Below are positions 4,580 through 19,812 of a stretch of 21,168 nt of DNA, piece by piece. Source of the DNA: a virus; IMG/VR virus record IMGVR_UViG_3300034374_008555, positions 1 to 21,168 of that record. One strand, given 5' to 3'. The notes under the pieces were generated by a model that saw only the letters and a list, made by a program, of their open reading frames with translations, ran no database searches and was not told the DNA's origin. Within the stretch, counting starts at the first letter, position 1. Every line of letters begins with the position of its first letter. A program made the translations under genes and the position numbers.

Positions 4580-4907
4580 AACAGGAGACAAGTTGATATG
4601 TACACAGACATCGGTAATTCACATGCCGATGTATGTGAACATGGGAAAGAAGGTAGTAGAACACACTGATACCCTTATCAGTGAAAGCTCTATTGCTGAG
4701 CAGATGGAGTCGAACAGAAAGATGTTCGTTCCGGTATTGACAGTTGAGCGTGTGTTCGATGATGTTGATGGTAAGCAGTGGCTACAGTTCCGTAATGGAC
4801 AGAGAACGCCAAAGAGATATCAATTGCACCATCTGCATCCTGGATCCAAGTTCCGTCATGCAAAAGTATCAGATCTAAAACCTAAAAACTTCAAGAAGAA
4901 TGGATGA
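4572..4907 (+). CDS. unknown small protein (111 aa)
   Basis: A 111-residue product of mixed strand and helix, with a basic C-terminal part (HHLHPGSKFRHAK, then KPKNFKKNG). The sequence VERVFDDVDGKQWLQFRNGQR suggests a small beta module of the SH3 or KOW kind, with a loop and paired strands. No family is recognised. Start and stop overlap the flanking genes by eight bases each (ATGTTTAA before, ATGGATGA after), so all three are probably translated as a coupled set. The basic tail would suit nucleic-acid binding, but that is a guess. Confidence 0.7.
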   Translation: MFKTGDKLICTQTSVIHMPMYVNMGKKVVEHTDTLISESSIAEQMESNRKMFVPVLTVERVFDDVDGKQWLQFRNGQRTPKRYQLHHLHPGSKFRHAKVSDLKPKNFKKNG

Positions 4908-5385
4908 TATCCTAAAAGACATACCTGACTATACTTTCAGGTCTAAGATCAACAGTATAAAGATGCTCTTGAGCAAGGGTTGCCTTATCGTATTCACTGA
5001 CAATGAAAGTGGATTCCTTCCAGGTGCTCCGTATATTGTGGACAATGTAAAGGAAGTATATAACTCACGTTATGAGATAACAGCTACCAATACCCGTACA
5101 CATGACAGACACACTTATACTGTAGCAAGGGATTCCTTTCAGATCATAGGTGCTCAGAGATCAGTGGTGGAGTCCACCATCAAGAGTCTTGAGAGGGAGC
5201 AGAAGAAACTTGAGTTCCTGAAAAACAAGATGGACACTCTGGGTCTTACCGATCCTGCTGATTTCATTGACATCCGTAAGGAGATGATAGGCGCCATCCT
5301 TAACAGGATAGATGATCCTGATATTGACAGGACCGAGAAGGTTCAGGTCATTGCTGAACTGATGGACAGTATGTTGTCCATCTGA
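4900..5385 (+). CDS. unknown protein with beta-rich N-terminus and coiled-coil C-terminus
   Basis: A 161-residue product. Residues 25-90 look beta-rich (LIVFTDNESGFLPGAPYIVD, later RHTYTVARDSFQII), similar in pattern to the C-terminal part of the membrane protein at 1194 and to the protein at 4572. Residues 92-160 form a long charged helix with heptad-like spacing (VESTIKSLEREQKKLEFLKNKM), a likely coiled coil. It is the last gene of the block containing the AAA+/VWA pair and is followed nine bases later by a strong hairpin terminator. Function is unknown; the coiled coil suggests oligomerisation or docking. Confidence 0.7.
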   Translation: MDDILKDIPDYTFRSKINSIKMLLSKGCLIVFTDNESGFLPGAPYIVDNVKEVYNSRYEITATNTRTHDRHTYTVARDSFQIIGAQRSVVESTIKSLEREQKKLEFLKNKMDTLGLTDPADFIDIRKEMIGAILNRIDDPDIDRTEKVQVIAELMDSMLSI

Positions 5386-5393
5386 TATCATTG

Positions 5394-5422
5394 GAGAAGA
5401 GGGAAAGCCCCTCTTCTCTTTT
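5394..5422 (+). terminator. hairpin terminator after the AAA+/VWA block
   Basis: A ten-base-pair perfect stem, GAGAAGAGGG (5394-5403) with CCCTCTTCTC (5409-5418), closes a five-base AAAGC loop. TTTTC follows, a typical Rho-independent terminator. It lies nine bases after the stop of one gene and 25 bases before the ATG of the next, which leaves no room for a full promoter. It may act as a partial terminator or an RNA-processing site. Confidence 0.85.
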
Positions 5423-5443
5423 CATTTTCAATAGCTTTATAAA

Positions 5444-5869
5444 ATGGCCAATAAACAGACAACAATAGCCCAGAAGATAAGAGCATTCGTAGGCCCTAAT
5501 AAGATAATGTATTTCAACAGGCAGGGAGGATTCAGCAGATACATAGGTGACAATCCTATCAATGTCAATGAGAACTGTGTCTTTGAACTCATGGATCCAC
5601 TTGAGATGAGTGATGACCTGATAGAGGCCTTTGCAAGGGATACTGATATGTCAGTAGAGGATGTAAAAGCAGAAATAGGCATGTTCAGATATGACATATC
5701 TGATAAAATGCCCGTATCTTTGGCATCTTTGCTGGCTCAGGGACGCTATGACTCACCGGTATACGGTAGGAGTCTTCTCGGTTCAGGGCTTGCAGTGACA
5801 ACTATAGCACCATTGATAGAAGAATATGATAGAACTCATCAACACGAAGAAGAAATGCTGCCTTTTTGA
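5444..5869 (+). CDS. unknown protein (141 aa) preceding DNA polymerase
   Basis: A 141-residue soluble product of unknown family. The N-terminus MANKQTTIAQKIRAFVGPNK is basic; the middle is acidic (MDPLEMSDDLIEAFARDTDM, then a helix VEDVKAEIGMF); the C-terminus ends in HQHEEEMLPF. It is the first gene after the hairpin, and its leader gctttataaaATG is typical for this genome. It overlaps the polymerase start by 44 bases, so the two are probably translated together. It could be a replication accessory protein, but only its position says so. The acidic tail with a hydrophobic end recalls protein-docking tails such as that of SSB. Confidence 0.7.
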   Translation: MANKQTTIAQKIRAFVGPNKIMYFNRQGGFSRYIGDNPINVNENCVFELMDPLEMSDDLIEAFARDTDMSVEDVKAEIGMFRYDISDKMPVSLASLLAQGRYDSPVYGRSLLGSGLAVTTIAPLIEEYDRTHQHEEEMLPF

Positions 5870-7724
5870 GCATCTGCTTGAAGAGGAATGTGTGCAGGTG
5901 GACACAGAGACCATGGGTTTCGATCCACACACATGTGAACTTCTATCATTACAGCTCGGTACTGCTGACGGAGAACGTCAGTATGTGATAGATTGTAAGG
6001 AGGTGAACATATCAGAGGTACCTCTTATCAAAGAGATACTGGAGAGTGTTCCTTCCATCTATCACAATGCCAAGTTCGATCTCAGATTCCTGTATCACCA
6101 TGGGATATTCCCAAGGAAGGTAATGGACACATTCTTGAATGAGTGTGTCCTTACTACAGGACTCTCTCAGAGAGGACTCGGTCTGGATGTAGTGGCATTC
6201 AAGTACTGTGATGCTGTAATGACGAAAGACATCAGAGGTAACATACACCGTGAAGGGTTGACTCCCAGAGTGATACGGTATGCTGCAGATGATGTCAAGT
6301 TTCTCAAGGGCATCTATGACTCTCAGATGGAGAGAGCCAAAGAACTTGACCTTGAACGTACGATCTCCTTGGAGTCACAGTATGTATCTGCTCTTGCATA
6401 TACAGAGTATTGTGGATTCAAGTTGGACATAAAGAAGTGGTTGGAGAACAATGCCGACCATCAGGCTCAGGAGAAAGAAGCTGAGCAGGAAGTTGTCAAT
6501 TGGATATTCGATAACATGCCTCAGTACCGTGAAGCGCAGTTGGATCTGTTCTCTGAGGATAAGACGATATCTCCTAAGATAACCTCCACAAAGGATATGA
6601 CAGAGGTGTTCAAGACACTCGGTGTGGACACTACTGTCATGGATAAGGGCAGACCTAAGGACTCCATAGAGTCCAAGCACCTTAAGAAGTTCAAGAATGA
6701 GTTCCCTCTCATCCCAATATATTTGAGATACATGGAGAAGAGGAAACTGGTAACGACATATGGAGAGTCATTCTTGAAGCATGTGAACAGGAGTACCGGT
6801 AGATTGCACAGCAATTACTGGCAGATACTGAATACGGGCAGGATATCATCATCCGATCCCAATCTTCAGAACATTCCTGCTGACGAGAATATAAGAAAGT
6901 GTTTCATTGCAGATGAAGGTAACACTCTTGTTGTGGCTGACTATTCAGCACAGGAGACAAGGGTACTGGCTGACATGGCCAATGAACGCAACTATATAGA
7001 TTTCTTTAAGAACGGTGATGGTGATTCGCATTCCATGGTAGCTTCCAGAATGTTCTCTGAGATAGAGGGCAGACCGGTAGTGGTAAGCAAGAAACAGAAC
7101 TCTGATAAGAGACAGATCGGTAAGATACTGTCATTTCAGATAGCCTATGGTGCATCAGCATTCTCCGTAAAGGACAGCTTCGGTATATCTGAGAAGGAAG
7201 CTCAGAAGTTCATTGATGCGTATCTTGATTCCTTTCCTGATCTCAAGAAATACTTTGAGAAGAGAAAGAAAGAGGTGATAGCATATGGACATGTGGTAAC
7301 TGACAGAGTATCAAAGCGAAAGATATTCATGGAAGGTTTTGATCGATTCTCTGAGTTGCGGGAAGAGATACAGGACATCTATGATAACGGATCGGTGCCT
7401 GACAGAGCAATGATACGTGAATACTATACCACTAAGGGTAAGTATGAACGTAATGCTCTGAACTATCCGATCCAATCGGTCTCCGCAAGTATGATGAAGC
7501 TTGCAGGAGTAAAAGTGTTCAATCATATTCTGGACAATGACCTACAAGGCAAGGTCAAGATGGTCTCATTCATCCATGATGAGATGTGTTTAGAATGCCC
7601 TATTGATATGGCTGAAGATATGGCTGCCATGGTACAGGATGCCATGGAATCTGCAGCTCGGGCGTTCTGCGATCATGTTGAGATCCCTGCTGTTCCGAAT
7701 ATTACAGAGTATTGGCAAAAATGA
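5826..7724 (+). CDS. polA: family A DNA polymerase with 3'-5' exonuclease
   Basis: A 632-residue replicative DNA polymerase of the PolI family. The N-terminal DEDDy proofreading domain shows VDTE (Asp26, Glu28), NAKFD (Asn81, Asp85) and YAADD (Tyr152, Asp156). The polymerase domain shows TGRISSSDPNLQNIP (337-351), motif A ADYSAQETR (Asp372), motif B with the R-K-F-Y pattern (Arg429, Lys433, Phe437, Tyr441), and motif C IHDE (583-586). All expected catalytic residues are present. Phe437 corresponds to E. coli Phe762, the position that governs rejection of dideoxynucleotides. There is no 5'-3' exonuclease domain, as in phage replicases. It probably copies the phage genome with the helicases, SSB and primase downstream. 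Confidence 0.97.
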   Translation: MIELINTKKKCCLFEHLLEEECVQVDTETMGFDPHTCELLSLQLGTADGERQYVIDCKEVNISEVPLIKEILESVPSIYHNAKFDLRFLYHHGIFPRKVMDTFLNECVLTTGLSQRGLGLDVVAFKYCDAVMTKDIRGNIHREGLTPRVIRYAADDVKFLKGIYDSQMERAKELDLERTISLESQYVSALAYTEYCGFKLDIKKWLENNADHQAQEKEAEQEVVNWIFDNMPQYREAQLDLFSEDKTISPKITSTKDMTEVFKTLGVDTTVMDKGRPKDSIESKHLKKFKNEFPLIPIYLRYMEKRKLVTTYGESFLKHVNRSTGRLHSNYWQILNTGRISSSDPNLQNIPADENIRKCFIADEGNTLVVADYSAQETRVLADMANERNYIDFFKNGDGDSHSMVASRMFSEIEGRPVVVSKKQNSDKRQIGKILSFQIAYGASAFSVKDSFGISEKEAQKFIDAYLDSFPDLKKYFEKRKKEVIAYGHVVTDRVSKRKIFMEGFDRFSELREEIQDIYDNGSVPDRAMIREYYTTKGKYERNALNYPIQSVSASMMKLAGVKVFNHILDNDLQGKVKMVSFIHDEMCLECPIDMAEDMAAMVQDAMESAARAFCDHVEIPAVPNITEYWQK

Positions 7725-12329: not shown

Positions 12330-13256
12330 ATGTTCCAGACAAGGAATGCGGAAGTACCATTAAGGATAGATATCCTTGAGGAGTACAGTGAGCTGCAGAT
12401 ATACAGACACTACTTTCCTGACATTCCTATAGGTGAGTTGACATCCTCTCCGTTCAGAGAGGATAAGAATCCTTCATTCATAATAAGGGTGAAGGATGAT
12501 CACACCTATTATCATGACTATGCATTGGGAGAGACGGGGGATGTTATATCCTTCGTCTCCAATGTATATCCTGAACTGGACCGTGATGAACTGCTGTTAC
12601 AGATAACAAAGGATCTTGATACCGGTGAAGTACCTGACGTCACATATGTGAGAAAGAATCCCATAAAGAGGGATCTGAAGATAAAACGCAGGGAATATAC
12701 TAAAGGAGATCTGGCATTCTGGGATCAGTACGGTATCACACAAAGGACTCTGAAACTGTTCAGGGTCAGCCCCATTTCATATTACTGGATAAACGACACG
12801 AGGTTCACATGTGAAGAGCCTGCATATGCCTATGATCTCGGTGGAGAGTACAAGGTGTACAGACCTACCAAGGAGGATTACAGGTTCATAGCAGGTGGTG
12901 TCAAGATACAGGGTATAGATCTGTTACCACGCACACACGACATTCTGATCATTCAGAAATCATACAAGGACGTGATGCTGTGCTATGAGTTCGGATATCC
13001 TGCAATGGCACCGCAGAGTGAGACGTGTCCGATACCTTCTGATATAATGGAGGACATGAAACAAAGATTCAAACGTATTGTCATACTCTATGATAACGAT
13101 GATGCTGGCATAAAGGCCGCAACACAACTGTCAGAACAGTATGATCTTGAGAAAATATTCCTTACTGAGGCAAAAGATCTTTCAGATCATGTATTTTTGC
13201 ATGGCAAGGAGTATACCAAGAATACGTTAAAAGAACTGTTGAATGAACAACAATAG
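12330..13256 (+). CDS. DnaG-like primase with altered zinc-finger and Toprim sites
   Basis: A 308-residue primase-like protein. Residues 39-80 follow the CHC2 primase zinc domain in outline (SSPFREDKNPSF ... GETGDVISFV), but every zinc ligand is gone: the usual CPFH reads SPFR and the FHCFGC segment reads YYHDYALG. The Toprim part follows, with DILIIQKSYKDVM (204-216) in place of the usual Glu-containing first motif and ILYDNDDAG (252-260) as the DxD metal motif. It lacks a helicase-binding or helicase domain. It probably makes primers for the phage fork; the changes may mean different DNA recognition. Its start lies one base after the SSB stop. Confidence 0.8.
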   Translation: MFQTRNAEVPLRIDILEEYSELQIYRHYFPDIPIGELTSSPFREDKNPSFIIRVKDDHTYYHDYALGETGDVISFVSNVYPELDRDELLLQITKDLDTGEVPDVTYVRKNPIKRDLKIKRREYTKGDLAFWDQYGITQRTLKLFRVSPISYYWINDTRFTCEEPAYAYDLGGEYKVYRPTKEDYRFIAGGVKIQGIDLLPRTHDILIIQKSYKDVMLCYEFGYPAMAPQSETCPIPSDIMEDMKQRFKRIVILYDNDDAGIKAATQLSEQYDLEKIFLTEAKDLSDHVFLHGKEYTKNTLKELLNEQQ

Positions 13257-13602
13257 AAGAAGGGGTAATAAATGGGAACTGGATTGCATAGCCATCTTGA
13301 AGGATATCTTTCCTGATGCTGTAAGCTCAAGGGCTGAGAGCAGGGCGAGAGATGCTGCCAAGGTGGACATATGTCATACAGGTGAGTTTAATTTCCAATG
13401 TAAGAATTTATCAAAGAAGGTAAATTACGATGAGATACTGGCAGAGATGCCGGACGAGGGGAAGATCAATGTCATACTCAGTAAGTTGACAGAGAAGAAA
13501 GGTAAGCGCTTCTATGAGAAGGGCAGATTCGTAATGCTCGATATGATGGATTTTGTAAGGATTCTAAATGGATACATTGAGAATAGCAAACCTCGGTCTT
13601 GA
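13243..13602 (+). CDS. PD-(D/E)XK nuclease, Holliday-junction-resolvase-like
   Basis: A 119-residue protein with the layout of small archaeal-type Hjc resolvases and related nucleases: a basic N-terminus NNNRRRGNKWE with Glu12, then RAESRARDAAKVD with Asp42, then a strand ending in FQCK (Gln52, Lys54), which together form an E-D-QxK catalytic set. The length fits the resolvase family (about 120-140 residues). Its position after the polymerase, Sak4, SSB and primase genes suggests resolution of branched replication and recombination intermediates. It overlaps the primase by 14 bases. A restriction-type or single-strand nuclease role is also compatible with the motif. Confidence 0.75.
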   Translation: MNNNRRRGNKWELDCIAILKDIFPDAVSSRAESRARDAAKVDICHTGEFNFQCKNLSKKVNYDEILAEMPDEGKINVILSKLTEKKGKRFYEKGRFVMLDMMDFVRILNGYIENSKPRS

Positions 13603-13858
13603 TAGGGATGTTCTGGAATATCTGGAGTCAAGGCTCGGGAAGAATGCATCTTTTACACTGGCACGTAATTATCTGGAGGACATGATGACAGAGTATTCAC
13701 TCAATATCATGGTACCTGAACCGGATGAGATGGTGATCCAGTTGATAAAGGATCATTATACACTAAGTACATATTATTCACAACTCATACAAAAATTTGA
13801 AGAAAATGAGAACGATCACAGTAAAAACAGGAAGCGGAGTACAGAGCTATCAGTCTAA
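13568..13858 (+). CDS. unknown small helical protein (96 aa)
   Basis: A 96-residue, mainly helical product that overlaps the nuclease gene by 35 bases and the ubiquitin-like gene by 53. Residues 1-75 contain several amphipathic helices (GLDRDVLEYLESRLG, FTLARNYLEDMMTEYSL, DEMVIQLIKDHY). The final 20 residues (EENENDHSKNRKRSTELSV) are polar and basic and lie entirely within the overlap with the next gene. That tail may therefore be shaped by the overlapping frame. No family is recognised. Its position between a nuclease and the Ubl makes it a candidate partner or substrate of either. Confidence 0.65.
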   Translation: MDTLRIANLGLDRDVLEYLESRLGKNASFTLARNYLEDMMTEYSLNIMVPEPDEMVIQLIKDHYTLSTYYSQLIQKFEENENDHSKNRKRSTELSV

Positions 13859-14024
13859 TGCAACAACCTTGGCAGAACTTTCTGCAGAAACAGGAGTTGA
13901 CTTTACAGGTCAGTCAGTAATTGCCAAGGAGGCAAGACTGATGATGGATGATCTGAGTACACCGTTACCTACAGGGAATATCACCCTCGTTGCCAGCGCT
14001 TCCCGTATGAAGGCAGGCGCTTAA
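13806..14024 (+). CDS. ubiquitin-like beta-grasp protein (Ubl)
   Basis: A 72-residue protein with the strand order of a beta-grasp Ubl: a first hairpin (MRTITVKTGSGVQSYQS), a helix (TTLAELSAETG), a strand (SVIAKEARLMMDDLS), and a last strand leading into a flexible C-terminal tail (GNITLVASASRMKAGA). The length matches ubiquitin, ThiS/MoaD and PRTRC protein C. The tail ends Lys-Ala-Gly-Ala, not Gly-Gly, so Ala removal or direct use of the Ala terminus must be considered. The ATG at 13806 is preferred over an in-frame TTG at 13797. Identification as a Ubl depends partly on the E2, JAB and E1 genes that follow. It is the last gene before a terminator. Confidence 0.75.
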   Translation: MRTITVKTGSGVQSYQSNATTLAELSAETGVDFTGQSVIAKEARLMMDDLSTPLPTGNITLVASASRMKAGA

Positions 14025-14031
14025 AATGAAA

Positions 14032-14063
14032 GGAGAGAGAGGCGAAAGCCTCTCTTTCTTTTT
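14032..14063 (+). terminator. hairpin terminator between the Ubl and E2 genes
   Basis: An eight-base-pair stem, AGAGAGGC (14036-14043) with GCCTCTCT (14048-14055), closes a GAAA tetraloop. It is extended by further pairs with G-T wobbles and followed by a T-rich run (TTCTTTTTC). It begins eight bases after the Ubl stop and its stem ends 37 bases before the E2-like ATG. Transcription of the replication operon should largely end here, with read-through possibly supplying the E2-JAB-E1 genes at a lower level. Confidence 0.85.
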
Positions 14064-14092
14064 CTTATTCACTAACTATAAATAAATATACC

Positions 14093-14995
14093 ATGGTGAT
14101 AACACAGGCCGTCACGGCCGGATCCATAAAAGAATGTGCTCTGCATTTCTTTGATCATGTGGAAGTATCCTCCAATTTTGTGTACATACTGTTTCCGGAG
14201 CTTACAGTTACCAATGAGCTGGATCTCAGTATAGACATACAGGATCTTGTAGTAAAGTTGGAGTACAGTATACTCAGGGACAATAAGGTCATGTTTGAAA
14301 ACATGCAGGGACTGCGTATACAGACCGATCTTACTCAGTTTCTGGGATATTATTCCCACTCCCATCTTCCTAAATTCGGACTTGATGACTTTAACAGATT
14401 CTGTCTTGGAAGTGATACTCCTATGAAAGCTGCTTTGGATACTACAGAAGTTGACATGGATGTTGTATTCGGTCTTGTGAACTCATTCGTACGTAATGAA
14501 TCAGTAGCAGGAGTACCTCATGTAAAACTGGATACTGTACTGGACCTGAACAATGTATTGTCACATCTCTTAAAAAGTAAGGTCCCTACCATACGTCACA
14601 TATCAAGTATTGCAAAGGATATGTTGGAGAATGGTAATCTTTCCTATCAGTATGTGTCTGACGGTATTCTTCCTAGAATAAAGATACGGTCAGGAGATGA
14701 TGAGAGGTTGCTGAGACTTTTAGTGGACAATGGACTGGGAACAGACATGTCCTCTTATAGTATGTTACAGCTCATGCAAAAGATACACTTATCTGTTCGG
14801 GAAGAGGATGGAGAGTATCATCTCGGTCTTTTGAATCCCTTTACCATTGACGGTGTGACAATTGACAGAAAACATATAATCCCTACTGAGGAGGAACTGT
14901 CCCACATCAGAGACAATGTGAGTTCAGGGGCTGAAGATGTAAAAAAGGCCTACAAGTATTTAGAAACATTCTTAAATAAATATCTTAATCTATGA
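14093..14995 (+). CDS. E2-like ubiquitin-conjugating-fold protein
   Basis: A 300-residue protein with the hallmark of prokaryotic E2-like proteins. The segment YYSHSHLPKFG (86-96) corresponds to the conserved His-Pro-His/Asn flap, and FCLG (103-106) carries the candidate thioester cysteine, Cys104. The preceding 80 residues provide strands expected of the UBC fold (NFVYILFPELTVTN, DLVVKLEYSILRDNKVMF). The remaining 190 residues are helical, of unknown role, and longer than a minimal E2. The next gene is a JAB peptidase and the one after it an E1-like enzyme, the classic prokaryotic conjugation neighbourhood. The family would transfer the Ubl to a target Lys; activity here is inferred. The gene starts a new transcript segment after the terminator. 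Confidence 0.75.
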   Translation: MVITQAVTAGSIKECALHFFDHVEVSSNFVYILFPELTVTNELDLSIDIQDLVVKLEYSILRDNKVMFENMQGLRIQTDLTQFLGYYSHSHLPKFGLDDFNRFCLGSDTPMKAALDTTEVDMDVVFGLVNSFVRNESVAGVPHVKLDTVLDLNNVLSHLLKSKVPTIRHISSIAKDMLENGNLSYQYVSDGILPRIKIRSGDDERLLRLLVDNGLGTDMSSYSMLQLMQKIHLSVREEDGEYHLGLLNPFTIDGVTIDRKHIIPTEEELSHIRDNVSSGAEDVKKAYKYLETFLNKYLNL

Positions 14996-16014
14996 AACAC
15001 TTTGAAATGCCCCAAGGTTATACCTTGATGATCAGCCCATCGCTGATGAATGAGATAGCGTATCTTCATTCAAAGAATGACAATAAGGAATGGTGCGGTG
15101 TACTGTTCTACGAAAAAGTATCAGGATCCATCTTTACAGATGATCTTGTGCTACGTGCAAAACACATCTATCTTCTTGACATAGGAAGTTCTGCATATAC
15201 AGAAGGCTCCATTGATCTTGAACTCCTTGATTTCTTTGAAGAGGTTCCTGAAGCTGAAGACATGAAACGTGGATTCATTCACACTCATCATGGTATGAAA
15301 GCATACTTCTCAGGAACTGACATGTCTGAGCTGTATGACAATACCAAGTACTATGATTACTATCTGTCCCTCATAGTCAACCATGCTACCCTGTTTGTTA
15401 CCAAGATAGGCATGGAGGCTGAGATAGGAGTGACAGGAACTGCATTTAAAATAGAGAACCCACCTATTCTTACATTCGATGGTAAGGTGGAGTTTGATAT
15501 TCCTGTCAACCTTGCAGCAAGACAGTTCAAGCTGTCAAAGCCTGTGGTACAGGGATATCAGAGTTCAAGACAGTTGTACAAGGACACTCCGTTCGAGGAT
15601 CATATCTCTCCTAACCAGATGACCATCTTTGATGTGCCTGGAGTGGAGTCTGAGTTTGATAAATATCCGGAGCATATGTACAGCATCAATGCCTTTACTG
15701 CAGTACGTAAGTTGATAGGTCTGCCGATAAGTAAGGAGTTTACAAAGGAAAATATCATAAATGCGTTGAAACCCTTTGAAGCTTTTTCTGAAGAAACAAA
15801 GCGGGCCATCATTGATACTGAGATAGAGCATTCTATCGGTCTTATTTTACAAGAGGTCTATGGTACTCAGGAAGAGGATGTGGTTTTAGGATGTAATGAG
15901 ATCTATAACGTGATGGCGGATTATTTTCCAGAAGACAGAGAGCTCAAGGATCATCCGTTCGTACAAGAAGTGATAAATACACTTTTTGAAGAAATAGGAG
16001 TATTGACCATGTAA
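14992..16014 (+). CDS. JAB/JAMM metallopeptidase (Ubl deconjugase or processing enzyme)
   Basis: A 340-residue protein whose first 150 residues are a JAB/MPN domain with an intact zinc site: Glu33 in KEWCGVLFY, and the HxHx7SxxD motif formed by His97, His99, Ser107 and Asp110 (FIHTHHGMKAYFSGTDMSEL). All catalytic residues are present, so active cleavage of isopeptide or C-terminal peptide bonds is likely. It could mature the Ubl tail (ending AGA) or strip the Ubl from targets. Residues 150-340 form a large extension with no recognised domain (TIFDVPGVESEFDKY, later a helical part). The start overlaps the E2 stop by four bases (ATGA), implying coupled translation. Confidence 0.92.
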   Translation: MKHFEMPQGYTLMISPSLMNEIAYLHSKNDNKEWCGVLFYEKVSGSIFTDDLVLRAKHIYLLDIGSSAYTEGSIDLELLDFFEEVPEAEDMKRGFIHTHHGMKAYFSGTDMSELYDNTKYYDYYLSLIVNHATLFVTKIGMEAEIGVTGTAFKIENPPILTFDGKVEFDIPVNLAARQFKLSKPVVQGYQSSRQLYKDTPFEDHISPNQMTIFDVPGVESEFDKYPEHMYSINAFTAVRKLIGLPISKEFTKENIINALKPFEAFSEETKRAIIDTEIEHSIGLILQEVYGTQEEDVVLGCNEIYNVMADYFPEDRELKDHPFVQEVINTLFEEIGVLTM

Positions 16015-16044
16015 TTACAGTAACTTATAATAAAATCATATAAA

Positions 16045-16722
16045 ATGAATGATACACGTTATGGTAGATTCAAGGACAGCCCATGGTTCGGTAAATCCCT
16101 CCCTCCTATTATTGTAGGAGGTGCGGGCGGTATCGGATCATGGTTCATGATCCTTCTGATGCGTACAGGAGATCATCAGGTAATGCTGATGGATCCTGAT
16201 ATTGTAGAGGAGAGCAATCTTGCAGGTCAGTTCTACACTGAAGCTGATATAGGTAAAACAAAGGTGGCTGCTGTCTCTGATCATGTTGATAGGATGTGCG
16301 GTAATAAGCCTGGGCTGTTTTACAATACTGAAAGATATCTTCCAGGATCTGAGGCTACTCCCATCATGGTCTCATGTTTTGATAACATGCAGGCCAGACA
16401 GGACATGTTCGCCAACTGGGAGAAGCAGGACAACCCTAAGCTCTTTATAGATGGTAGGATGAATGCTGAGGCGTTTCAGTTATTTGCAGTGACCCCTAAG
16501 AATGCAGAGAGGTATAAAGAACATCTGTATGATGATTCTTCTGTACCAGATCTTGCATGCAGTTACAAGGCAACTTCTCACACTGCAGCCATGCTTGCAG
16601 GTAAGATGGTAGCTGTTCTGAACAACTGGATATGCATTGATCATGGATCTGATGCGACCAGGGAGTTGCCTTTCTTCATAAAGTATGATCTTTCAATGAT
16701 GATGGAAACCGTAGAGTTATGA
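16045..16722 (+). CDS. ThiF/E1-like Ubl-activating enzyme
   Basis: A 225-residue Rossmann-type adenylating enzyme. The nucleotide loop is VGGAGGIG (24-31). The acidic strand and following segment MDPDIVEESNLAGQFYTEADIGKTK (49-73) match the D-x-D-x-V-x-x-SN-L block of E1/ThiF/MoeB, with Lys71/73 at the conserved lysine. SCFDNMQAR supplies the conserved Asp113, and Cys172 in DLACSYKATSHTAAM is the candidate catalytic cysteine. The usual Arg of NxRQ is replaced (NLAGQ), and there are no zinc CxxC pairs. The length equals a single-domain bacterial ThiF-type E1. It would adenylate the Ubl C-terminus and pass it to the E2-like protein. Confidence 0.9.
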   Translation: MNDTRYGRFKDSPWFGKSLPPIIVGGAGGIGSWFMILLMRTGDHQVMLMDPDIVEESNLAGQFYTEADIGKTKVAAVSDHVDRMCGNKPGLFYNTERYLPGSEATPIMVSCFDNMQARQDMFANWEKQDNPKLFIDGRMNAEAFQLFAVTPKNAERYKEHLYDDSSVPDLACSYKATSHTAAMLAGKMVAVLNNWICIDHGSDATRELPFFIKYDLSMMMETVEL

Positions 16723-17441
16723 GAATAATACACAATAAAAGCAATAAGAAGGTGATACGGTCCATGCCGGTCACAGGTTGGCCTGTAGAACATAGAGTGA
16801 TTGATGGTTATATCTATGGATTCTCAAACTCAGTACCTCTGTTTGAGATGAAGTACAACACTTCAGCTAGATTCATTCCTCTTGATGCCATTATTCAAGG
16901 GTCAAGCTCCATAAGCTGTAAGATCATACACAGTTATGGAAAGAAACGTAAGGATATAATGGATCTTGTAAATGATCATGTGGGAAATGATGTTGCCAAC
17001 TATATGATGAGCAGTAGAGCTCCTTATGATGATACTCTGTTCCTTAAGGATGGGGTCATGTACAGACATAAGGATGATGTTGTTATCCCACTGTTCGGAT
17101 TATTCATAAAGAACAATACTACGAACAGGATATCCATTAAGAAGGATGTTGCCATCAACGCTGCAATAGGTAGCTCTGTCATCAATGTTCCGCATGACTC
17201 AGTACTGTATGTTCATCCGCTATGCCTTACAAAAGGTACAAAGGAGGAGTATACTTTCGGACCACATGTGAGAAAATTGAAAAAGACCTTTGAAAGACTT
17301 GAGTATTCTGAGGATCTGAGTATATTTGACGACATGTTCGATCACAGGATCAAGGCCCCTAAGGGATTTGGCGAGTTTGAACAGTTCAACAGTAAAGTAA
17401 ATACACACTTAAAACAACTAATAAATGAAATCTATGAATGA
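16719..17441 (+). CDS. unknown protein coupled to the E1-like gene (240 aa)
   Basis: A 240-residue product of unknown family, beginning with a basic segment (MRIIHNKSNKKVIRS). The body contains aromatic- and Val/Ile-rich strands (YIYGFSNSVPLFEMKYN, VVIPLFGLFIKNN, SVINVPHDSVLYVHPLCL) and ends with helices (RKLKKTFERLEYS, NSKVNTHLKQLINEIYE). Its ATG overlaps the E1 stop by four bases, the same junction as E2/JAB, which makes it a candidate fifth member of the conjugation operon. No catalytic pattern stands out. It could be a substrate adaptor or target, or simply a neighbour. Confidence 0.75.
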   Translation: MRIIHNKSNKKVIRSMPVTGWPVEHRVIDGYIYGFSNSVPLFEMKYNTSARFIPLDAIIQGSSSISCKIIHSYGKKRKDIMDLVNDHVGNDVANYMMSSRAPYDDTLFLKDGVMYRHKDDVVIPLFGLFIKNNTTNRISIKKDVAINAAIGSSVINVPHDSVLYVHPLCLTKGTKEEYTFGPHVRKLKKTFERLEYSEDLSIFDDMFDHRIKAPKGFGEFEQFNSKVNTHLKQLINEIYE

Positions 17442-18447
17442 ACAGGAGTACAGAAATGCAGAGGGTATATCAAGGTCACTTCTCAGTGACTTTGATGATC
17501 ACCCCATGAATGTGAAAGAACCCAGAGAAAGTGTAGAATCAGATGCATTCCGTATAGGGAGTGCATTTGACGCTCTGATGTTCCAGACACCGGATGAATG
17601 GAATGAGAGATACTATGTATCGACTGCAACTCCTCCTACAGGAATGATGGTAGGTATGGTAGAGGCTGCAATAAACATCAAACTTGCAGATCCTTTTGGA
17701 GATGTTGATGTTGCAGATCTTGCGTTTGAAGCCTCTGACTACAAGCCTTCCTATAAGAAGACCGCACTTACTCAGTTTGAGACCTTCAGTGACTACATCA
17801 ACGAAAGATGTGAGAATGATGGTAAGGTCTGTATTTCTCAGGAAGAGTATGATATGATGAGCAGAATGAAGGCGAACTGTCTGACAGACAGCTCTGCCAG
17901 AAGATTCTTTATCAGAAATGCACATCCTGATCTTGAGCTGAAGTTTCAGGTACCGGTATTCTGGGAGCAGTCAGGAGTAACATGCAAGGCCCTTCTTGAT
18001 ATTGTACTTGTAGATCATGCGGAGAAGAAGATATACCCTGTGGATCTGAAGACAACTTCAAGCAGTGTATATTATTTTGCATCTTCATTCATCAAGTACA
18101 AGTATTATCTACAGTCCTCCATGTACACTGCAGCAGTTGAAGAGCTGTTCGCCAATGAGATCTCTGAGGGTTATACTGTTGAGAACTTCAAGTTCATTGT
18201 AGTAGGCACTACTGGACGCAATGAAGTTCTTACATATACTGTATCTGATGCAGATCTGCGGGCAGGAGATTACGGTTATACTGATCTGTATGGTAACTAT
18301 CATAGAGGTTGGATAACCCTTCTTGAAGATCTGTCATGGCACTATGAGAATGATCTTTGGCAACATCCACGTAATGTGTATGCACACGATCATGACATGC
18401 CTTTAAACTGTACAGCACCATGGAAACAGCAACTGCAGTTACAATAA
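17425..18447 (+). CDS. RecE/Cas4-type PD-(D/E)XK exonuclease
   Basis: A 340-residue nuclease of the RecB/RecE superfamily. It opens with the ISRSLLSDFDDHP segment (15-27) typical of the family's N-terminus, then FRIGSAFDALMF (42-53). The catalytic region has LELKFQVPVF, CKALLDIV (Asp192) and YPVDLKT (Asp207, Lys209), followed by LQSSMYTAAV (Gln230, Tyr234), the QxxxY motif of RecB-like nucleases. In phages such enzymes resect DNA ends for annealing by a recombinase, here perhaps the Sak4-like ATPase. It follows the E1 block with a 17-base overlap. A 5'-3' exonuclease role is the most likely. Confidence 0.85.
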   Translation: MKSMNEQEYRNAEGISRSLLSDFDDHPMNVKEPRESVESDAFRIGSAFDALMFQTPDEWNERYYVSTATPPTGMMVGMVEAAINIKLADPFGDVDVADLAFEASDYKPSYKKTALTQFETFSDYINERCENDGKVCISQEEYDMMSRMKANCLTDSSARRFFIRNAHPDLELKFQVPVFWEQSGVTCKALLDIVLVDHAEKKIYPVDLKTTSSSVYYFASSFIKYKYYLQSSMYTAAVEELFANEISEGYTVENFKFIVVGTTGRNEVLTYTVSDADLRAGDYGYTDLYGNYHRGWITLLEDLSWHYENDLWQHPRNVYAHDHDMPLNCTAPWKQQLQLQ

Positions 18448-19163
18448 AGGATCCTACCTGTGTAAGTATCAGAGTCGATGATACTGCAGAGATACGGCAG
18501 GATGATAAGACCATTCATGAAGTACGTCACTCCGGTATGAGTTACGCTCCTGGCAGGATCATTCCTGTCCAGGACGGACTCTTCCGTATAGAGAGTATAG
18601 AGAAGAAGGGACCTAACCTTTATTATCTGTATTCCATGGAGACGTCTGACTCTTCCATATTCCTGACACCGATGTTATTCAATACAAGGTCTCAGGTAAT
18701 GTGGGACACATACTTCATGAATGTATTCCTGTGGATGGAAGATGTACCTACCATGAGACTTCATGTTCTTTTACGTAAAGGTTATACTGATGCATTCAAT
18801 GCATTGGAGGCCATTATAAAGAACCATGATGACTTTGTGGACAGGTTGGAGGTCGATGATTTCTCGGTCATGTACGTGTTCAACGTGCCTATAATATATG
18901 AGGACGACTTCCTTAAGTTTGTAAAAGGCAAATACTCTCAGATGTCAGATGCCTATAAGGTAAGGATACTTGATTTTCATTCAATGAAAAAGACCCATGA
19001 GGTCTATGGTATCCTGTACAGGACAGATAAGAGAAAGGCCAAAGTAGAAGAAAGAATAGGCGAGGATCTTCCTGATTCTGCCGAACTATATCACATAATA
19101 GATGAAGATAGGGAAACATATAAGACCAGATACAGGATCTTCAGATCTCAAGCAATGGGATAG
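18420..19163 (+). CDS. unknown protein (247 aa)
   Basis: A 247-residue product between the RecE-like nuclease and uracil-DNA glycosylase, overlapping both (by 28 and 62 bases). It has a mixed strand/helix N-terminal half (residues 10-85, including FRIESIEKKGPNLYYLYSME) and a helical middle (MRLHVLLRKGYTDAFNALEA). Its charged C-terminal region (RTDKRKAKVEERIGED, then RETYKTRYRIFRS) is rich in basic residues and would suit nucleic-acid binding. No catalytic motif or family is recognised. Given its neighbours it may be an accessory DNA-repair or recombination protein. Confidence 0.7.
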   Translation: METATAVTIKDPTCVSIRVDDTAEIRQDDKTIHEVRHSGMSYAPGRIIPVQDGLFRIESIEKKGPNLYYLYSMETSDSSIFLTPMLFNTRSQVMWDTYFMNVFLWMEDVPTMRLHVLLRKGYTDAFNALEAIIKNHDDFVDRLEVDDFSVMYVFNVPIIYEDDFLKFVKGKYSQMSDAYKVRILDFHSMKKTHEVYGILYRTDKRKAKVEERIGEDLPDSAELYHIIDEDRETYKTRYRIFRSQAMG

Positions 19164-19812
19164 GATCATGAAGCCTATAATGGCTGATATGTCAGATCTT
19201 GGTATGAGAGTTGCAAAGTTACGGGCAGCTACCTTGGTAATACCTTCCAAGAAAGATACCTTCCGGGCATTTGAACTTACTCAACCTGAGAACTTAAAGG
19301 TGATACTTGTAGGACAGGATCCATATCCTAAGTATGGACAGCCTACAGGTGTGGCCTTTGGAGTTGACATTGAGAGATCCAAGACAGTTCCTTTTTCACT
19401 GAAGATGATACTGGAGGAGGTTGAGAACACTACCGGTGTCCTTCAGCTTGATCCTGATCATACTCTTGAGCCATGGTGCAGGCAAGGGGTTCTCATGTTG
19501 AACACTGCCTTTACACTTGAAGCAGGACGGATAGGTTCCCATACAGAGATGTGGAGACCTTTTACTGAAAGACTGTTGACAGCCATCACAAAGGAATATC
19601 CTGATGTGCCTGTCATCTTCTTAGGATCCAAAGCTGCTGCATTTGAGAAGTGTCTGAACGGCAATCCCGTACTCAAGGCATCCCATCCTGCAGCAGAGGC
19701 CTATGGTAGAAGAGGAGGTTTTCTTAAAAGTGGTATCTTCAGTAAATGCAATATAGTATTGGAAGAACAGGGTAAAGAGCCTATAGACTGGAATCTACAT
19801 GAAAGCGTATAA
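19102..19812 (+). CDS. ung: uracil-DNA glycosylase, family 1 (Ung)
   Basis: A 236-residue uracil-DNA glycosylase that removes uracil from DNA. The water-activating motif GQDPYP (71-76, Asp73), uracil-recognition Asn134 in LMLNTAF, the strand VIFLGSKAAAF, and a His motif at SHPAAEAY (His195) follow the family 1 order. The C-terminal IVLEEQGKEPIDW closely matches the end of E. coli Ung. The usual HPSPLS minor-groove loop, with its intercalating Leu, is HPAAEA here. The ATG at 19102 lies 62 bases inside the previous gene. A later ATG at 19168 is possible but would remove the conserved Trp region near residue 19. It probably guards phage DNA against dUTP incorporation or deamination. Confidence 0.95.
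   Translation: MKIGKHIRPDTGSSDLKQWDRIMKPIMADMSDLGMRVAKLRAATLVIPSKKDTFRAFELTQPENLKVILVGQDPYPKYGQPTGVAFGVDIERSKTVPFSLKMILEEVENTTGVLQLDPDHTLEPWCRQGVLMLNTAFTLEAGRIGSHTEMWRPFTERLLTAITKEYPDVPVIFLGSKAAAFEKCLNGNPVLKASHPAAEAYGRRGGFLKSGIFSKCNIVLEEQGKEPIDWNLHESV

Follow-up and report, generated by a model that had tools for sequence, protein, structure and literature searches.

Why would a bacterial virus carry a full set of genes for attaching a ubiquitin-like protein (Ubl) to other proteins? In bacteria, Ubl cascades are known as anti-phage defences, of which Bil and type II CBASS are examples and Bub is a further Ubl-type system; the PRTRC gene sets of plasmids have no assigned role. The question is raised by the virus record IMGVR_UViG_3300034374_008555, which was analysed over its full length of 21,168 nucleotides (nt); this stretch is called the window, and coordinates refer to it unless a relative is named. 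Positions 13806–16722 of its + strand hold four open reading frames (ORFs) in the order Ubl, E2-like protein, JAB and E1, all present at the place and in the order given by an earlier sequence-only reading. A complete, conserved set of this kind in phages reverses the familiar picture, in that the virus itself may be the tagger.

The Ubl ORF (13806–14024, +; 72 amino acids, aa) starts with the ATG at 13806 and stops at 14022–14024; an alternative TTG start at 13797 would make it three residues longer, and its product is modelled as a beta-grasp domain. The hypervariable E2-like ORF (14093–14995, +; 300 aa) encodes a modelled N-terminal UBC-like domain of about residues 1–145 and a C-terminal part. 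It is followed by the ORF of a JAB/JAMM metalloprotease, the predicted Ubl maturase and deconjugase (14992–16014, +; 340 aa), and by that of the E1, a single-domain ThiF-type adenylyltransferase (16045–16722, +; 225 aa). The next ORF, here called gene X (16719–17441, +; 240 aa), overlaps the E1 stop and is also hypervariable. It may be an extra member of the set, as a candidate adaptor, E2 partner or substrate.

A comparison of relatives confirmed that phages carry a complete and conserved Ubl–E2–JAB–E1 set. By tblastn, the E1 matched 78 of 50,697 phage records, of which 29 belong to Flavobacterium phages, 29 to Bacteroides phages and 12 to uncultured ones, with 8 falling elsewhere; it gave no match at 1e-5 in the plasmid collection. 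Scanning viral contigs with an E1 profile yielded 151 relatives, 80 of which were kept. The full set is carried by 88 of 93 E1 loci (duplicates included), phages of Bacteroides and Flavobacterium among them, with the four genes on one strand and in identical order in 88/88. Thinning at 90% E1 identity left 72 representatives; all four genes are found in 67, six of which have an insertion of >400 nt between two genes. As 90 of the 93 loci had been fetched by E1 (L009 and L011 were fetched by E2 and L016 by Ubl), the presence of Ubl, E2 and JAB is independent evidence rather than chance. Between the window and its relative L004, the ratio of amino-acid-changing to silent substitution (dN/dS) is 0.11 for E1, 0.20 for JAB and 0.18 for Ubl, which places these three frames under purifying selection.

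The carriers include crAss-like Steigviridae (e.g. crAss001) and Flavobacterium phages. In crAss001, DAC15, cr126_1, cr85_1, cr106_1 and FpV4 the order is Ubl, E2, JAB, E1 and one further gene. GenBank labels for the products include 'thiamine biosynthesis protein', often given to the E1, and 'contains metalloprotease domain', and one E1 is entered as 'E1 enzyme family protein'; no conjugation system is named in the annotation of the stretches examined. Using the crAss001 capsid as a marker, 115 phage records were matched, 51 of them at an identity of at least 60%, and 45 of the 51 carry the E1. Of the other six, four represent just two genomes, cr116_1 and cr108_1, and one is only 4 kb long; the last, PhiCrAssBcn25, is a partial record without replication genes and is therefore uninformative on whether the cassette is dispensable. 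A crAss-type capsid was also found in 23 of 44 IMG/VR records tested, which are 25 to 169 kb long and may be fragments. L004 and L025, the nearest long relatives of the window, gave no crAss-type capsid match, so that the family of the window's phage is a matter of inference.

Among the five incomplete E1 loci, three (L090, L093 and L034) run to contig ends, one (L061) has no recognised Ubl and one (L021) has E1 alone. The last is Xanthomonas phage PhiXhv-15 (229 kb), in which an E1 relative at 5860–6543 of that locus adjoins an 892-aa protein of no recognised kind; no recognisable Ubl, E2 or JAB lies within the stretch examined. A genome scan returned two contigs of metagenome-assembled genomes (MAGs), one with all four genes. 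This 12-kb contig (L101), binned as a Clostridium MAG, is probably a phage contig and perhaps misbinned.

Active-site residues are retained in both enzymes at the 3′ side of the cassette. The E1 matches Pfam ThiF (5.4e-17, over the cut-off) and phrog_15670 (4.6e-47). Its best match among solved structures is UBA5, a Ubl-activating enzyme (profile, 9.4e-13), and its best NCBIfam model is ThiS adenylyltransferase (1.4e-14). The glycine-rich nucleotide loop G25–S32 is encoded at 16117–16140 and Cys172 at 16558–16560; G26, G28, K73 and D113 are kept in 72/72 representatives and C172 in 71/72. The JAB protein matches Prok-JAB at 6.6e-5, slightly below the cut-off (23.2 vs 25 bits), and its profile matches the solved structure of CSN5 at 0.003. 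In 70 representatives, E33 is kept in 67, H97 in 67, H99 in 68, S107 in 69 and D110 in 69.

Neither Pfam nor NCBIfam gave a match to the Ubl up to E 1. As modelled with AlphaFold2 (predicted local distance difference test, pLDDT, 83), it has a strand–strand–helix–strands arrangement in beta-grasp order. Foldseek matched the model with a probability of 1.00 to ISG15, ubiquitin, TtuB and plant-type ferredoxins (best E 9e-4), and the best VIA-align match had a Z of 7.8 (root-mean-square deviation, rmsd, 2.4 over 69 residues). The model and the two structural comparisons agree with the beta-grasp assignment proposed earlier for this 72-residue protein, and a beta-grasp modifier is supported on that basis. 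The top Foldseek row would make it a 2Fe-2S ferredoxin. Plant-type ferredoxins have the beta-grasp fold themselves and the Ubl is free of cysteine, so this identity was rejected.

The C-terminus of the Ubl follows the pattern of a processed precursor, with an invariant Gly and an ever-present, variable tail. All 67 of 67 representatives retain the Gly that closes the Ubl domain, and it is the last residue of the protein in 0/67. The tail behind it has 1 to 213 residues and is highly variable between phages; it has five residues or fewer in 13/67 and can be as short as a lone Ala, Lys or Phe. In the window, Gly71 (14016–14018) is followed by a single Ala and is the predicted JAB trim site. Judging by this pattern, the Ubl is probably a precursor that is trimmed by the JAB protein. 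For Bil, the available text of PMC11354881 describes maturation of the Ubl, BilA, by the JAB protein BilC, which uncovers the C-terminal Gly. A C-terminal extension is present on the Ubl of crAss001, DAC15, cr126_1, cr85_1 and FpV4, and not on that of cr106_1. In cr106_1 (L011, 4459–5662), the Ubl gene stops two residues past the Gly and is followed immediately by an HNH endonuclease gene; the remainder of the usual extension is a separate ORF, and there are inserted genes between Ubl and E2. An unexpected fusion was seen in cr126_1 (L009), where residues 158–220 encoded by the Ubl gene (4870–5796) are the C-terminal domain of ribosomal protein L7/L12 (PF00542, 5.1e-12).

The E2-like protein gave only a chance-level Pfam row (0.17) and nothing meaningful in NCBIfam, and it matches phrog_15310, to which no function is assigned, at 1.8e-5. 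Its motif, H89-S-H91...C104-x-G106, includes Cys104 at 14402–14404; C104 and G106 are kept in 70/70 representatives and H91 in 69/70. The AlphaFold2 model has a pLDDT of 89.5. When it was compared by VIA-align, the nine best rows were E2 or UEV entries with Z scores of 3.8–5.0, among them Rad6 (Z 5.0, rmsd 4.0 over 124 residues), UBE2H (4.9) and Tsg101 (4.7), followed by kinetochore proteins and Cap2 (Z 3.4); a VIA Z below 8 may reflect merely a common arrangement. The 300-aa protein is likely to be an E2, as judged from the model. In favour of the earlier assignment stand the invariant Cys104 and Gly106 and the E2/UEV rows at the top of the VIA list; it is weakened by the Z scores of at most 5.0 and by Foldseek, which gave no match at E 0.001. 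An alignment match to ubiquilin (profile, E 0.48) was taken as chance. All of the motifs named by the sequence-only reading (SHSH and Cys104 of the E2, the HxH, S and D residues of the JAB, the loop and Cys172 of the E1) are present and conserved. Its claim of a phage-borne Ubl, E2, JAB and E1 set draws support from the conservation of cassette and active sites, from the beta-grasp model of the Ubl and, more weakly, from the E2 model.

Gene X matched no known family up to E 1 in Pfam, NCBIfam and PHROG scans. An ORF stands behind E1 in 69/72 representatives by a loose rule, and in 63/72 by a tighter one (complete, at least 100 aa, start no more than 30 nt from where E1 ends). A seeded profile search found the crAss type of X in 24/72 representatives, adjoining E1 in all of them, and the window type in 3/72, adjoining E1 in two. 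X groups 0, 1, 3, 4 and 7 form a weakly connected set, joined by six hhalign links with pairwise E values of 6e-5 to 3e-3; control comparisons of X with E2, JAB and Ubl gave E values of 0.027 to 0.68.

E2 and X are the fastest-evolving genes of the locus and form gene-bounded islands of divergence between close relatives. In the alignment of the window with L005, identity per 60-nt bin is 38–70% in one island (14130..14995, +), bounded as the E2 gene is, and 37–75% in a second (16722..17400, +), bounded as gene X is. Outside the islands, identity between 13500 and 17700 is mostly 77–100%, with a single 70% bin at 15840. The corresponding protein identities are 0.93 for Ubl, 0.88 for JAB and 0.95 for E1, against 0.49 for E2 and 0.48 for X. 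Silent divergence (dS) in this pair is 1.58 for E2 and 0.46–0.62 for Ubl, JAB and E1. As E2 diverges at silent sites also, allele replacement is suggested in preference to faster amino-acid change alone. The E2 of L005 is closer to that of L017/L018 (0.64) than to that of the window (0.49), and its Ubl is closer to the window (0.93 vs 0.89). Over 169 residues, the JAB of L005 is nearly even (0.93 to L018, 0.92 to the window). A third dip (0.55 at 15800–15999), besides E2 and X, is seen between the window and the more distant L024.

The same two genes stand out across the relatives. E2 is the least identical of the four proteins in 65 of 66 close pairs, duplicate loci included, the exception being L031/L032 (Ubl 0.83, E2 0.90). 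In a set of up to 50 close pairs, from which ten duplicate loci were dropped by hand and in which the near-identical window and L002 are counted twice, mean identity is 0.88 for primase, 0.80 for Ubl, 0.56 for E2, 0.74 for JAB and 0.85 for E1; it is 0.52 for X (44 pairs), 0.79 for exonuclease (43 pairs) and 0.84 for uracil-DNA glycosylase (UDG; 29 pairs). Median whole-gene dN/dS is 0.64 for E2 (9 pairs) and 0.92 for X (7 pairs), with 0.31 for Ubl, 0.21 for JAB, 0.21 for exonuclease, 0.16 for primase, 0.11 for E1 and 0.06 for UDG. These medians come from 5 to 9 partly non-independent pairs per gene, with saturated dS values and pairs with a missing gene left out. Relative to Ubl, JAB and E1 taken together, an excess of amino-acid over silent change was found for E2 in 6/6 pairs from different clades (p 0.023 to 2.4e-5) and for X in 5/5 pairs with data (p 0.051 to 3.3e-6). 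When E2 was split at residue 150 in four pairs, changes were present in both halves. Such fast change would fit proteins that meet changing partners.

As had been proposed, the cassette is located between replication and recombination genes. Upstream are a DnaG-type primase (12330..13256, +; phrog_12622, 6.9e-34) and a neighbouring RusA-like resolvase (13243–13602). Downstream are an exonuclease VIII-like PD-(D/E)XK nuclease (17425..18447, +; phrog_412, 2.1e-33) and a UDG (19102..19812, +; NCBIfam 7.3e-46, slightly below the model cut-off). In crAss001 the UDG comes immediately after gene X.

In three relatives, the interval between primase and UDG is filled by unrelated genes. That of cr116_1 (L103, 18138–25437) holds rIIA-like and rIIB-like genes (phrog_612, phrog_2979, phrog_609). 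In cr108_1 (L104, 27200–36173) it holds an ATP-grasp protein, a phiEco32-type COOH-NH2 ligase, amidotransferases and an amidoligase, and in Cellulophaga phage phi14:2 (L112, 20971–28370) an amidoligase-type set by annotation. The four cassette profiles gave no match at E 0.01 in 50-kb stretches of these relatives. The available text of PMC7824862 describes rIIA orthologues as a poorly understood counter-defence system. The common slot hints at related roles for the Ubl cassette, the rIIA/rIIB genes and the amidoligase sets.

The explanation favoured here, with a probability of about 0.5 for the statement as a whole, is a Ubl conjugation operon run by the phage, made up of the four core genes and X and aimed at fast-changing targets. 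The folds of Ubl and E2 are modelled; in what follows we infer each catalytic step, the cut made by JAB, what X does and what kind of protein is targeted. The JAB protease would trim the Ubl precursor after the conserved Gly; the E1 would adenylate this Gly and then take the Ubl onto Cys172, from which it would pass to Cys104 of the E2. The E2, probably together with X, which may be an adaptor, a partner or itself a substrate, would attach the Ubl to its targets during infection, and the JAB protein could also remove it from them. The first half of this scheme follows from the established chemistry of these protein families. Ubl, E1 and JAB may form a constant engine, and E2 and X variable, target-facing parts that change fast because the targets change. 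The most likely targets would be host proteins that work against the phage, or components of rival elements. A bolder version can be put forward only tentatively. It holds that a widespread group of tailed phages, to which the cultured crAss-like phages infecting human-gut Bacteroides belong, runs a Ubl cascade in infected cells as a weapon against host defence or competitor proteins, with E2 and X as paired, swappable and fast-evolving targeting modules on a constant Ubl/E1/JAB engine, in a slot that elsewhere holds rIIA/rIIB or a peptide-ligating amidoligase system.

The same biochemistry might instead serve housekeeping, with proteins of the phage itself (for replication, recombination or late expression) being tagged so as to control their timing or turnover. 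The cassette lies between primase and recombination or repair genes and stays near them, with profile matches in the fetched flanks of 67/72 (primase), 54/72 (exonuclease) and 46/72 (UDG) representatives, and it is found in phages of both Bacteroides and Flavobacterium. However, E2 (0.56) and X (0.52) change much faster than primase (0.88), exonuclease (0.79) and UDG (0.84), which is unexpected if both meet only replication proteins, and unrelated genes fill the slot in three relatives; a housekeeping role is judged rather unlikely. The fast evolution of E2 and X would also suit a mimic that diverts or undoes the Ubl defences of the host (Bil, Bub, CBASS Cap2/Cap3), with JAB as deconjugase and Ubl, E1 and E2 as decoys, and such host systems exist, as the available texts on Cap2/Cap3 (PMC10097602) and Bil (PMC11354881) describe. 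Nevertheless, a decoy needs neither its own Ubl nor an E1 and E2 with near-invariant catalytic cysteines, and Ubl, E1 and JAB, the presumed direct contacts of a host Ubl system, evolve more slowly than E2 and X, so this reading appears improbable. A sulphur relay, in which a ThiS/MoaD-like carrier and its activating enzyme would supply a cofactor or a modified nucleotide, would account for the ThiS adenylyltransferase model, for the frequent 'thiamine biosynthesis protein' label of the E1 and for the resemblance of the Ubl model to TtuB, a sulphur carrier. It is ranked as very improbable because of the E2-like protein, whose cysteine, kept in 70/70, has no role there. In addition, the E1 profile prefers UBA5 among solved structures, and no sulphurtransferase or desulphurase is named in NCBIfam scans of 30 window proteins.

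A role in conflict is preferred over housekeeping, decoy and sulphur relay. The sequence-only reading had offered tagging of phage replication proteins, or blocking or imitation of host tagging, as alternatives; the fast evolution of E2 and X fits quickly changing targets better than fixed replication proteins. Several observations weigh against the favoured operon. The position of the cassette in the replication module and the presence of E1 in 45 of the 51 crAss-like records with a close capsid would suit housekeeping as well. The E2 model has low VIA Z scores and lacks a Foldseek match at E 0.001, which is not read as absence of the fold, and profile comparison gave no match between the phage E2 and the PRTRC E2 (protein B). 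Typical E1s carry an N-x-x-R-Q arginine, a position that is Gly in 64/72 of the E1s here. The X group of the window (group 2) showed no link to other X groups by hhalign (best 0.027). A recombination donor for the E2 of L005 was looked for among the relatives and was not demonstrated, and the first 92 residues of the L005 JAB are closer to L017/L018 (0.97, 0.95) than to the window (0.90). Finally, relaxed constraint can also raise the dN/dS of E2 and X, though E2 keeps its catalytic residues.

The presence of the cassette in the cultured phages crAss001, DAC15 and FpV4 makes its function directly testable. The fast E2 and gene X offer a testable handle on the identity of the targets, and the Ubl, with its constant Gly and tail, is a simple model of Ubl maturation.

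The order Ubl, E2, JAB, E1 is not unique to phages; it matches Bil and, without F, PRTRC. BilABCD encodes Ubl, E2, JAB and E1 in the same order as the phage cassette (PMC11354881, available text). According to the same text, BilD combines a pair of adenylation domains with a Cys domain and BilA has two domains, in contrast to the single ThiF domain of the 225-aa phage E1 and the single domain of the phage Ubl. Moreover, Bil is a bacterial anti-phage system, whereas the present set is located in phage genomes. The PADLOC BilD model matched the E1 weakly (5e-4 for the window, 2.5e-5 for crAss001), and no other Bil model was among the PADLOC matches listed.

Cap2 is a fusion of E2 and E1. Type II CBASS shares the E1 and E2 chemistry and a JAB deconjugase with the phage set, and the VIA comparison of the E2 model lists Cap2 as a match, whereas the phage parts are separate genes with a dedicated Ubl. 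Cap2 conjugates the CD-NTase (the cGAS/DncV-like nucleotidyltransferase) itself (PMC10097602, available text), and no CD-NTase is named in NCBIfam scans of 30 window proteins. In the lambdoid tail-assembly proteins TAPI and TAPK, as given in the available text of PMC1779556, a phage Ubl with a conserved C-terminal Gly stands beside a JAB protein with predicted cleavage after the Gly; these are tail genes for which that text describes no E1 or E2, whereas here the full set lies in the replication module. The same early survey lists Ubl/JAB pairs in phage tail genes, and bacterial E1/E2/JAB operons, some of them on mobile elements. In line with the sequence-only reading, which knew of no phage system with this gene order, no description of a full Ubl, E2, JAB and E1 set in phages was found in the literature searched, which covered few subscription papers and preprints. 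Of two crAss-phage papers searched by word, PMC7886860 mentions uracil-DNA and lacks the words ThiF, ubiquitin, JAB, thiamine and amidoligase, and PMC6235969 lacks ThiF, ubiquitin, metalloprotease, thiamine and uracil-DNA.

The plasmid PRTRC order C-F-B-A-ThiF corresponds to Ubl-like protein, F, E2, JAB and E1. The phage E1 is homologous to PRTRC ThiF (hhalign 98.7%), scoring 42.1 bits against TIGR03736 (cut-off 144.75); the JAB shares an HxH....[FY]FS.TD stretch with protein A (hhalign 31%, E 5e-4, 30 columns), and C-x-G is found at the E2 cysteine in both. In contrast to PRTRC, the place of F between Ubl and E2 is empty in the window. Ubl, E2 and JAB gave no TIGR match to the PRTRC A, B and C models up to E 1, their profiles found no PRTRC protein at E 0.01, and the Ubl profile did not match PRTRC C by profile comparison. 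In NCBIfam scans of 30 proteins of this 21-kb fragment, ThiF was the only PRTRC model matched, with no ParB, E or F. Membership in Bil, PRTRC or CBASS was not accepted, as the defining E1, partner or fusion features were not found. With the two-domain E1 of Bil absent and no match to the PRTRC A, B and C models or to E, F or ParB, the cassette would resemble both systems in its working and is assigned to neither.

Protein C offers a modest parallel to the tailed Ubl in four PRTRC clusters (L105 and L106 against L107 and L108). In the two from Bacteroidota, which have no annotated JAB, protein C ends exactly at the Gly, and a hypothetical gene takes the place of F. In the two from Burkholderiales, where a JAB (protein A) is annotated, some residues follow the Gly.

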